Of a stretch of DNA of 27,394 bases, positions 4,148-6,192 are shown in pieces. Each line of letters starts with the position of its first letter. Positions within the stretch are counted from its first letter, which is position 1. This DNA comes from a virus: IMG/VR virus record IMGVR_UViG_3300032249_000078, positions 1 to 27,394 of that record. The stretch is one strand, 5' to 3'. Made by a program: the position numbers and the translations under genes. Under the pieces are notes generated by a model. That model ran no database searches. It saw only the letters and a list, made by a program, of their open reading frames with translations, and was not told the origin of the DNA.

Positions 4148-4333
4148 TCAGTCTTCCAAAATCTGAATGACTTCTTCAACTTCCTGTTTCAGGCTGTCGA
4201 GCAAGTAAACGTATTCACGAATCTTGGACTCCAGCATTCCGACTTGGAAAGCCAAACGATCTACTGCAGGTTGCCCTGCATACATCCTGTCGGCGGCAGC
4301 TGATATGTTTGCAATAATTTGGTTAGCAGTCAT
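4148..4333 (-). CDS. Small helical early protein (61 aa)
   Basis: GGAGG lies seven bases before ATG 4333. The product is one long amphipathic, coiled-coil-like helix, with Leu/Ile/Val at heptad positions from residue about 28 (FQVGMLESKIREYVYLLDSL) and an acidic end (EVEEVIQILED). No catalytic or metal motif is visible. It lies between a small membrane protein and Erf in the leftward operon, the position where P22 carries its abc and kil small genes. Its role may be in modulating host recombination or takeover, but this is positional inference and no family is recognised. Confidence 0.65.
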   Translation of the reverse strand: MTANQIIANISAAADRMYAGQPAVDRLAFQVGMLESKIREYVYLLDSLKQEVEEVIQILED

Positions 4334-4456
4334 TTATGGCCTCCACAAAAACAAGTCGATGGCAACGATTGCTAAAGCAACCAACGTGAGGCAAGTGATG
4401 ATGCGATCAACCTTGCGCTTTTTCTGATTGGGATATGGGCCTTCAATTTCAAACAT
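4334..4456 (-). CDS. 40-aa single-TM early peptide
   Basis: A short frame from ATG 4456 to TAA 4336-4334 has a strong ribosome site (TAGGAG, nine bases upstream). The N-terminus is hydrophilic and basic (MFEIEGPYPNQKKRKVDR). It is followed by a single membrane helix (IITCLTLVALAIVAIDLFLW) and a two-residue tail. The positive-inside rule puts the N-terminus in the cytoplasm. Its stop abuts the next gene's start (TAAATG). Small membrane proteins in early operons may act in superinfection exclusion or host inhibition. Function here is unknown, but the coding signal is good for its size. Confidence 0.6.
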   Translation of the reverse strand: MFEIEGPYPNQKKRKVDRIITCLTLVALAIVAIDLFLWRP

Positions 4457-4473
4457 GGTGTACTCCTAAAGAT

Positions 4474-4487
4474 GGGGCCGAAGCCCC
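4474..4487 (-). promoter_or_regulatory. Intercistronic UUCG-tetraloop hairpin
   Basis: In the minus-strand transcript, GGGGC-TTCG-GCCCC gives a 5-bp GC stem closed by a C(UUCG)G tetraloop, one of the most stable small RNA hairpins. It lies between the 79-aa and 40-aa genes. There is no T-run after it, so it is more likely an mRNA-stabilising or pausing element than a full terminator. Confidence 0.45.
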
Positions 4488-4497
4488 GTTTGGTTTG

Positions 4498-4737
4498 TTA
4501 AGCAGAAAAACGAACTGCACGATTTGCGGCATTAAGGGCACGTTTGCGGCAAACCGCACCCATTGCAGCATTACCAGCGGCGTAATAAGCATCTGCTTTT
4601 TTATCTAAAGATGCTGCAAGGCCCCAATCACGTTCTGCTTTTGCGGCGTTAGAGGGTTCAGCGTAACCCATACCCCAACCCAATGCGATAAGGGTTGCTT
4701 CTGATGGTGTGGCTGCTTGTTTTGTAAAAGTTGTCAT
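4498..4737 (-). CDS. First gene of the leftward operon, small Ala-rich protein (79 aa)
   Basis: AGGAG lies five bases before ATG 4737. The protein is Ala-rich and helical (KADAYYAAGNAAMGAVCRKR), ends basic (ALNAANRAVRFSA), and has Trp-containing segments near the middle (ALGWGMGYAEP, ERDWGLAAS). No membrane helix or known motif is seen. As the promoter-proximal gene of the early operon it would be among the first phage proteins made, a position often used for host-takeover or anti-defence functions. No specific function can be assigned. Confidence 0.65.
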   Translation of the reverse strand: MTTFTKQAATPSEATLIALGWGMGYAEPSNAAKAERDWGLAASLDKKADAYYAAGNAAMGAVCRKRALNAANRAVRFSA

Positions 4738-4877: not shown

Positions 4878-5030
4878 ATGGAAAAAGAAAAAGCAATTCA
4901 ACTAGCTGGAGGCGTTACGGCACTTGCAGCTTTGCTTGGCATCAAAAGGGCTGCTGTGTACCAATGGGGCGACAGCTTGCCACAAGCCAGGGTTTGGCAA
5001 TTAAAGACTTTGAAGCCTGAATGGTTCTAG
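4878..5030 (+). CDS. cro: Cro-like helix-turn-helix repressor (50 aa)
   Basis: The protein is short, like P22 Cro (about 60 residues), and is nearly all helix-turn-helix: GGVTALAALLGIKRAAVYQW followed by G-D-S-L-P-Q-A-R and a short tail ending LKPEWF. The alignment ALGI-x(2)-AAV-x-QW-x(3)-IP is the hallmark of Cro/YdaS-type phage repressors. It should bind operators in the upstream control region and repress early transcription. The first ATG preceded by a promoter-like -10 is 4878. An upstream in-frame TTG at 4809 would run through the promoter and is rejected. No divergent CI repressor gene is present. Confidence 0.85.
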   Translation: MEKEKAIQLAGGVTALAALLGIKRAAVYQWGDSLPQARVWQLKTLKPEWF

Positions 5031-5038
5031 GCTATGAT
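5010..5038 (+). promoter_or_regulatory. Promoter for the structured RNA (candidate)
   Basis: TTGAAG (5010-5015) and TATGAT (5033-5038) are separated by exactly 17 bp. The element overlaps the 3' end of the Cro-like gene. Transcription would start near 5045, just ahead of the first pairing segment of the RNA at 5053, so the promoter and the RNA fit each other well. Confidence 0.5.
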
Positions 5039-5044
5039 TAGAGA

Positions 5045-5154
5045 TATAACGCTTGGCGGCGTTTTTGTAGTGGGGTTACACATGCTGTCTGCTGGTACTA
5101 CACCAGTCCGCCAACATCCGTAAGGGTGAGACAGCAGGTGTAGCCCTTTTTTTT
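5045..5154 (+). ncRNA. Candidate ~110-nt structured small RNA / leader
   Basis: The non-coding interval between the Cro-like gene and the next gene holds several pairings. TTGGCGG (5053-5059) is perfectly complementary to CCGCCAA (5108-5114). CTGGT-ACTAC-ACCAG (5092-5106) is a clean hairpin, extended by a G-T pair. A long stem pairs 5072-5090 with 5129-5147. The first and third helices cross, so they form either a pseudoknot or two exclusive states. With its own promoter and a T8 terminator this looks like an independent small RNA or an attenuator. No known RNA family is recognised. Confidence 0.55.
5072..5154 (+). terminator. Long-stem Rho-independent terminator / attenuator
   Basis: The 5' arm 5072-5090 pairs with the 3' arm 5129-5147 without bulges. 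There are eight base pairs, one A-G mismatch, then ten more including two G-T wobbles. Eight T residues follow (5147-5154). The 3' arm end TAGCCC (5141-5146) can instead pair with GGGCTA (5156-5161) just before the next ATG. That would place the T-run in a loop and hide the G-run used as a ribosome site. Confidence 0.65.
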
Positions 5155-5164
5155 GGGGCTAAAA

Positions 5165-5347
5165 ATGGCAATTTACTTGCGAGCTGAGATTGAAACAGAA
5201 GTCCATGGTGATGGGGACGGATTCATAACAATCACTCAAACAGACTCAAACGGTGAAAAAACAGAAATTTATTTAACTGTGCATCAGTTTGAGACAATTT
5301 TTAATCACGAAAAACACATAGTGCGTGAAGCATTTGGCACAGAATGA
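5165..5347 (+). CDS. Small hypothetical early protein (60 aa)
   Basis: ATG 5165 follows a short G-run (5155-5158) that may serve as a weak ribosome site. The same G-run can be locked in a hairpin with the terminator arm upstream. The protein has a beta-type N-terminal half (AIYLRAEIETEV, GFITITQTDSNGEKTEIYL) and a helical C-terminal end (HQFETIFNHEKHIVREAF). It is acidic, with no membrane segment or metal motif. The stop overlaps the initiator gene start (ATGA), so the two are probably co-translated. No family recognised. Confidence 0.65.
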   Translation: MAIYLRAEIETEVHGDGDGFITITQTDSNGEKTEIYLTVHQFETIFNHEKHIVREAFGTE

Positions 5348-6192
5348 AACGTCCATCGTTTCAGTTTTACCCGTCTGATTGGCTGCGGGACACAGCTCTA
5401 AGATCATGTTCTATAGGCGCTAGAGGCTTATGGATTGACATGATTTGTTACATGCACGAAGGTAATCCTTATGGGCATTTAAAGGTTGGCAACAAGGTTA
5501 TCCTTGCACCTAACCTTGCGTCTATGGTTGGGTCAACCTTAGATGTTGTTGAAGATTGGCTTGATGAGCTTTTTCAAGCTGGCGTTTTTCAGTACGCAGA
5601 AGACAACGCCATTTTTTCTAAACGGATGATTAGGGACGAAAACCTACGCCAATTAAGGGCTGCAGGAGGAATTAAGGGCGGGAATCCTAATCTAAAGGAT
5701 AACCATAAGGTTAACCTTAAACCCAACCTTAAAGATGAAACCAGGGTTAAACAAAAACCAACCCCTACATCTTCATCTGCATCTTCATCTTCAATAAATA
5801 CCCCCCTACCCCCAAAGGGGGAGTTGTTTGATATTTTTTGGAAAGCCTACCCAAAGAAGGTCGGCAAGGATGCCGCCTACAAAGCATTTGCCAAACGCAA
5901 GCCTGATGAGCAATTGGTTAAGACCATGATTGCATCCGTCCGTAGGCAAGCCGACACCGAGCAATGGAAAAAAGACGGTGGGCAATTTATTCCCCATGCC
6001 AGCACTTGGCTCAACGAAGGGCGATGGCAAGACGAAACCGAAATCGGTGCAGAACAGGATTGGCGCATTACCCGTAAAGGCGTGGAAGACATGGCTGAAA
6101 AGCTAGGTCTAGGCAGGTGGAATCAGATGTGCCAGTTTGACCAATACAGAAATTCCGTAGTTACAGAAGCAACACAAAGGGGATTGACATGA
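5344..6192 (+). CDS. Phage replication initiator-like protein (282 aa)
   Basis: The N-terminal domain (1-110) starts RPSFQFYPSDWLRDTALRSC and contains the GLWIDMICYMHE and LDELFQAGVFQ winged-helix pattern seen in YdaU/DUF1376-like replication proteins. A low-complexity linker follows (about 113-160), with a period-4 Lys/Asn motif, then a Ser run. The C-terminal domain (161-240) has FWKAYPKKVGKDAAYKAF and GGQFIPHASTWLNEGRW, the typical ending of phage O-like initiators that load host helicase. It leads the replication part of the rightward operon. The linker-coding DNA holds 12-bp repeats that may be the origin. Confidence 0.8.
   Translation: MKRPSFQFYPSDWLRDTALRSCSIGARGLWIDMICYMHEGNPYGHLKVGNKVILAPNLASMVGSTLDVVEDWLDELFQAGVFQYAEDNAIFSKRMIRDENLRQLRAAGGIKGGNPNLKDNHKVNLKPNLKDETRVKQKPTPTSSSASSSSINTPLPPKGELFDIFWKAYPKKVGKDAAYKAFAKRKPDEQLVKTMIASVRRQADTEQWKKDGGQFIPHASTWLNEGRWQDETEIGAEQDWRITRKGVEDMAEKLGLGRWNQMCQFDQYRNSVVTEATQRGLT
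5695..5754 (+). repeat. Iteron-like 12-bp repeats, candidate replication origin
   Basis: In strict 12-base register from 5695 the units include AAGGATAACCAT (5695), AAGGTTAACCTT (5707) and a third ending AACCTT (5719). More degenerate units follow to 5754. TAAGGTTAACCTTA (5706-5719) is a perfect 14-bp palindrome, and AACCTTAAA occurs at 5713 and again at 5725. They encode a period-4 Lys-rich linker. Lambdoid phages keep their origin as iterons inside the initiator gene, so an origin here is plausible. Confidence 0.45.

Follow-up and report, generated by a model that had tools for sequence, protein, structure and literature searches.

An undescribed phage RNA family with two crossing helices, located before replication genes and proposed to be a leader of the replication operon

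The stretch of DNA analyzed here (the window) is the whole of IMG/VR virus record IMGVR_UViG_3300032249_000078, 27,394 nucleotides, and the terminase, portal, and head genes recognized in this 27.4-kb record assign it to a tailed phage. A leftward operon with an Erf-type annealing protein and a YqaJ exonuclease lies opposite a rightward operon, in which a Cro-like gene is followed by the RNA described here and then by genes including one for a replication initiation protein (Table 1). The RNA, which spans 5046-5154 and is about 105 nt long, occupies the decision point that separates early regulation from DNA replication. The first gene after it encodes a protein with no match in Pfam or PHROGs. 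No CI-type repressor was recognized adjoining the Cro-like gene, where two small leftward ORFs of unknown function are found (window 4148-4737, minus strand). Elsewhere in the window, the product of 7110-7472 matches the PHROGs phosphoadenosine phosphosulfate reductase, an auxiliary metabolic gene (E 9e-22).

Table 1. Features of the RNA locus and of int-alpA RNAs in two related loci (positions are those of the window unless a locus is named)
Feature	Position	Strand	Basis or remark
Cro-like gene, 50 aa, 5' of the RNA	4878-5030	+	Pfam P22_Cro, E 1.6e-12
Promoter: TTGAAG, 17-nt spacer, TATGAT	5010-5038	+	Sequence and family -10/-35 signal
Hairpin H1: stem 5048-5052/5059-5063, loop UUGGCG 5053-5058	5048-5063	+	
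Pseudoknot H5, 5' strand (the H1 loop; partner 5109-5114)	5053-5058	+	Six sequence types, always complementary
Pseudoknot H2, 5' strand UGUAGU (partner, the H4 loop)	5066-5071	+	
Long stem H3, 5' arm; 18 pairs, one conserved mismatch position	5072-5090	+	
Hairpin H4: stem CUGG 5092-5095/CCAG 5103-5106	5092-5106	+	
Pseudoknot H2, 3' strand ACUACA, within the H4 loop	5097-5102	+	
Pseudoknot H5, 3' strand CGCCAA	5109-5114	+	100% paired
Hairpin H6: stem 5115-5119/5124-5128, loop GUAA	5115-5128	+	Covariation
H3, 3' arm (putative terminator arm)	5129-5147	+	Fold and covariation
Alternative hairpin H7: AGCCC 5142-5146 with GGGCU 5156-5160, over the Shine-Dalgarno region	5142-5160	+	
U-tract of the putative intrinsic terminator	5147-5154	+	Sequence; nearly all members
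First gene 3' of the RNA, 60 aa, unknown	5165-5347	+	ATG 10 nt past the U-tract
Replication initiation protein	5344-6192	+	PHROGs phrog_270, E 5e-29
int-alpA RNA	L305:2907-2975		
int-alpA RNA	L331:2477-2545		

The sequence elements named in the original prediction of a structured RNA at this locus are all present where it had placed them: TTGGCGG at 5053-5059 and its complement CCGCCAA at 5108-5114, the long stem with its single mismatch (A × G, 5082 × 5137), the promoter, and the T8. The three helices that it listed (H3, H4, and H5) were confirmed, but H1, H2, and H6 had been overlooked. As a single sequence, the window RNA folds 3.5 SD better than its dinucleotide shuffles (-47.3 versus -35.5 kcal/mol), and none of 200 shuffles equaled it.

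The family comprises more than 140 distinct sequences from IMG/VR phages, two GenBank phages, and a few Burkholderiales genomes. Pattern scans of IMG/VR alone yielded at least well over a hundred copies. Most homologues are from metagenomic contigs, and all family counts are lower bounds. One pattern, CATGCTGTCTGCTGG, was discarded as too loose, many of its matches being due to chance. In a blastn search against phages, two GenBank phages from Manatee Spring matched over the RNA but not over its flanks, with 87% identity and with compensatory changes in two stem pairs. Further carriers are a named isolate genome, Polynucleobacter sp. UK-Kesae-W10, and one betaproteobacterial MAG. A covariance model built on 57 members matched in 3 of 399 genomes of the host family and in 2 of 399 genomes of the order and, except for the reference Polynucleobacter, in none of about 370 genomes of the class and about 300 of the phylum; no plasmid copies were found. 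Given this scarcity in host genomes at all four ranks, the RNA belongs mainly to phages, in Burkholderiales and freshwater settings, and is not a host gene. Two host-family genomes carry a GC-rich variant (L359:1501-1601 and L360:1501-1601) in which the fold is kept without a clear U-tract. The 3' arm of H3 in this variant can also pair with the segment before the ATG, and in L359 the next ORF, which has an HNH/AP2-type start, lies 12 nt downstream of the RNA.

All six helices covary. In an alignment of 57 members, 97.6% of the cells of the six-helix structure are paired, and 29 pairs change on both sides; the covariation score is 0.503, compared with 0.167 for shuffles and 0.05 to 0.10 for slid partners. 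Shuffle statistics are inflated by the relatedness of the sequences, a weakness from which the slid controls are free. H3 is 96% paired, with changes on both sides in 16 of its 18 pairs, and H2, which crosses it, is paired in 99% of cells and changes on both sides in all 6 pairs. The H1 stem is 100% paired, and three of its four counted pairs change on both sides, as do three of the four core pairs of H6, the loop of which varies in length. H4 is invariant in the pattern-selected sets; compensatory change is found in divergent members (CACC/GGUG in L291, L292, and L311; CCGG/CCGG in L359 and L360). The RNA core is far more conserved than its flanks, and the fold is stable, with invariant core residues.

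H5 is invariant in the 57-member alignment because the search pattern fixed UUGGCG/CGCCAA. Its variation was sought where it had not been fixed, i.e., among relatives of the replication protein, in a scan excluding the usual sequence, and in the bacterial genome L429. Six types were found (UUGGCG/CGCCAA, UUGACG/CGUCAA, UUGGAG/CUCCAA, UUGGCA/UGCCAA, UUGGUG/CACCAA, and UUGGUC/GACCAA). In these sequences, obtained without an H5 constraint, every change is matched on the opposite strand without exception; for three positions of the 3' strand, changes on both sides occur in 14, 13, and 6 of 33 distinct sequences. Three apparent mismatches were judged to be wrong matches of the regular expression; L392, for example, pairs UUGGAG with CUCCAA in the model alignment. 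The crossing of helices that had been proposed from the window alone is borne out by these changes, and the pairings are conserved at homologous loci, a check that had been proposed with it.

In the resulting geometry, all 6 nt of the H1 loop are paired with the strand directly 3' of H4, and the H4 loop (one U followed by five or six paired nucleotides) binds the strand directly 3' of H1. This reciprocal double pseudoknot is closed by H3, and H6 is stacked directly between H5 and H3. The covariation of all helices would fit either one double-pseudoknot fold or two alternating folds, between which these data cannot distinguish. Energy models of the nascent RNA without the 3' arm of H3 predict a nested helix (UUGGCGG...GUAGU/ACUAC...CCGCCAA) in three of four members tested, and this nested version of H5 and H2 opens H1 and H4. 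For the fourth member, L205, the predicted nascent fold is partly alike: H5 forms, and H4 is kept.

The promoter just 5' of the RNA is conserved in the family. A -10 box matching TATAAT in at least five of six positions is present in 91 of 118 upstream regions, where shuffles predict 54 (any position), and 83 of the 91 boxes sit 5 to 11 nt 5' of H1; a TTG-like -35 at a spacing of 17 nt emerges although it was not selected for. Judging from these signals, a sigma-70 -10 box would start the transcript at the fold, but there are no transcript data. A small HTH-like gene ends directly 5' of the RNA in many other members as well. H1 and the U stretch that follows it (5048-5066) score as a short terminator-like site about 20 nt past the predicted start, possibly a promoter-proximal pause. 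At the 3' end, H3 and the U8 tract satisfy the definition of an intrinsic terminator (a stable stem and then a U-tract), and the U-tract is kept in nearly all members; that termination takes place is an inference. A simple scan for short-loop terminators omits this site because the loop is long.

Among the matches listed, 132 of 147 distinct members have the ATG of the next gene 8 to 14 nt past the U-tract. Since this leaves no room for a promoter, the downstream genes would be transcribed only via read-through. The first genes after the RNA fall into 18 unrelated clusters, the largest of which (111 of 194 loci, among the matches listed) matches replication/primosomal families; other clusters encode small unknown proteins, HNH and GIY-YIG-type endonucleases, and ParB-like proteins. 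At five loci (L314, L205, L413, L008, and L216), HNH or GIY-YIG-type endonuclease genes lie exactly between the RNA and the replication gene, and these insertions keep the spacing of about 10 nt to the RNA. The pairing that had been predicted between the terminator arm and GGGCTA before the ATG at 5165 (H7) is present, with moderate support at the level of the family: its own partners score 12.7, versus 10.9 ± 0.18 for exchanged partners, with relatedness uncontrolled. Because the end of H3 can also pair before the ATG, one strand is common to the terminator and to a ribosome-site hairpin. The features expected of a riboswitch or attenuator leader (a conserved structured leader, a terminator, and a gene on the same transcript) are met.

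With respect to Rfam 15, which gave no matches on the window at or above the gathering score, the earlier statement that no known family is recognizable holds. Near the RNA, only chance-level miRNA and snoRNA matches appear at E values of up to 5, and three other members have no match at E values of up to 0.1. A literature search found no description of this RNA, subscription papers being outside its scope. H5, H3, H4, and H6 occur in the strand order of P1, P2, P3, and P4 of HDV-like ribozymes. An HDV-like ribozyme was rejected: H6 abuts H3, leaving no unpaired J4/2 stretch for the catalytic C, and H1 and H2 are extra covarying helices, of which H1 flanks the P1-like strand. As the promoter lies directly at the 5' end of the window RNA, no cleavage would be needed, unlike in HDV-like ribozymes.

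We think it somewhat probable, in the absence of in vivo data, that the RNA acts in cis as a leader or attenuator of the phage replication operon and that termination releases it as a stable small RNA. The original prediction had offered several functions; of these, the gene order agrees best with an attenuator located between Cro and the replication genes, since only about 10 nt separate the U-tract from the downstream ATG, and a small RNA remains compatible as the terminated product. In the mechanism that we propose, the promoter at the end of the Cro-like gene would start the transcript, probably supplemented by read-through from further upstream. The first ~105 nt would fold into the compact double pseudoknot clasped by H3, and the foot of H3 together with the U-tract would form an intrinsic terminator at which, by default, most transcripts would end as stable small RNA. 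Termination would leave the replication gene, which starts about 10 nt beyond, unexpressed. Read-through transcripts would serve as the replication mRNA, in which the last nucleotides of H3 could instead pair over the ribosome site (H7), and the strand shared by H3 and H7 would link termination with translation. What tips the balance might be cotranscriptional folding, a small molecule, or a factor from the host or the phage.

Sequence and covariation demonstrate the six helices with their two crossings, the promoter and U-tract, and a constant position before the gene, while the occurrence of termination, its regulation, and what tips the balance are inferred. In favor of an attenuator, we counted the covariation of all helices, the ATG spacing across unrelated first genes, the replication families in the largest cluster, the conserved -10 box, the pairing of the H3 3' arm with the segment before the ATG, the lack of a conserved free seed, and the predicted nested nascent helix, which would provide a built-in competition with the final fold. 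Against it, no RNA-seq or termination assay exists, no antiterminator or ligand has been identified, the spacing may reflect genome compactness only, a stand-alone sRNA gene would likewise have its promoter exactly where the fold begins, and the support for H7 is moderate and uncorrected for relatedness. Furthermore, because L359 and L360 keep the fold without a clear U-tract, termination would not be universal. The RNA probably decides how much of the replication genes is expressed, a function that is inferred, and it provides a concrete case in which the control of phage replication at the RNA level can be examined with reporters. The family is undescribed and widespread, and its two crossing helices are established by covariation.

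The exact fit of promoter and terminator to a stable fold with invariant core residues would also suit a phage sRNA that acts in trans by binding a host or phage protein (e.g., RNA polymerase, a nuclease, or a chaperone), with its adjacency to replication genes reflecting genome compactness. In relatives, the same slot is occupied by int-alpA-type RNA, an sRNA by Rfam class, and there is a precedent in IsrK of the Gifsy-1 prophage, where a single promoter can give rise both to a short RNA that is terminated and to a read-through mRNA encoding phage regulators (PMC4825925). However, a strong terminator between a promoter and essential genes would act in cis regardless, and the ATG spacing is fixed whichever gene comes next, so trans action remains a serious but unlikely reading. 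IsrK is described as a trans-acting, base-pairing RNA, whereas the window RNA has no evident free seed. A base-pairing sRNA was rejected for want of a conserved free seed; no conserved single-stranded antisense seed remains because both loops are used internally. A type III antitoxin RNA was likewise rejected, as the gene after the RNA is of many unrelated kinds and not a toxin. We consider it improbable that the nascent RNA binds RNA polymerase during elongation and renders the enzyme resistant both to the terminator of this RNA and to those encountered later. The early position in the rightward operon and the conserved compact fold recall HK022 put, another nascent structured phage RNA in an early operon, which causes antitermination in cis as RNA alone (PMC9378689). 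Yet put consists of two stem-loops in about 70 nt and has no terminator of its own; it suppresses terminators, whereas the window RNA, which does not share this architecture, has a terminator built into its fold and two pseudoknots. No sequence or Rfam relation to put was seen, and nothing found supports put-like action.

A translational switch in which the ribosome site of the replication gene is freed once UUGGCG and CGCCAA have paired into the pseudoknot would have its model in the repZ leader of ColIb-P9/IncI plasmids. For the ColIb-P9 replication leader, a 5'-UUGGCG-3' loop motif is named (Asano et al. 1998, as listed in PMC10724649), and the parallel extends to a UUGGCG hairpin loop and a pseudoknot before a replication-initiator gene (references in PMC10724649; PMC8383071). 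In ColIb-P9, the pseudoknot 5' of the ribosome site is needed for translation, and in the phage RNA the ribosome site could, without H3, be covered by H7. On the other hand, the plasmid system uses an antisense RNA, and no terminator is described there; in the phage RNA, a U-tract separates the pseudoknot from the gene, and the loop varies freely while remaining complementary. PK-repZ is named among RNA families in PMC12370729, but the window RNA has no Rfam match, even at permissive E values, and there is little likelihood that such a switch operates here. At most, put, IsrK, and the repZ leader would serve as functional analogies, and none implies membership. Finally, although the RNA does end in a terminator-like stem and a U-tract, an ordinary strong terminator with chance or hitchhiking structure has hardly any probability left: two crossing helices, which simple terminators do not need, covary, the core is much more conserved than its flanks, and this reading is refuted as far as covariation can refute it.

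With regard to the leader that we favor, the slot upstream of the replication gene is itself informative. The RNA lies 130 to 440 bp upstream of the gene in 17 of 66 relatives of the replication protein, and several other relatives hold a different RNA in the slot. int-alpA RNA (RF02996) is above threshold in two of them (L305 and L331) and below threshold in others; int-alpA or int-alpA-like RNAs also occupy the slot in L287, L313, L321, L327, L330, L332 to L335, L337, and L339. A GAAAAG...CCUGCC core is common to about 17 loci, and several int-alpA-type loci have an ACCU...AGGU-type hairpin over the ribosome site. int-alpA resembles the window RNA in its slot before the replication gene, in the long closing stem and U-rich tail of its Rfam consensus, and, for several members, in a hairpin immediately 3' of the RNA by which the ribosome site can be masked. 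It differs in its three-way junction with conserved GAAAAGC and CCUGCCUG, and there is no sequence similarity; its covariance model does not match the window RNA. The repeated presence of unrelated structured RNAs in one slot suggests that their job is tied to the slot. No function for int-alpA RNA was found in the literature examined, and the slot comparison provides a new hypothesis for it. More tentatively, and with considerable doubt, the RNA might be a self-contained switch of a new structural class, in which a nested nascent fold would compete with the double pseudoknot plus terminator and with the ribosome-site hairpin; a host signal or factor would thereby license phage DNA replication, and unrelated RNAs, including int-alpA, would have evolved the same job in the slot. 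Hairpin-plus-U-tract or closing-stem leaders also occur in the slot in L297/L298, L312/L315/L316/L326, and L324; they have a long-range stem, with or without a U-tract, that ends a few nucleotides before the ATG and are possibly further undescribed RNA classes.
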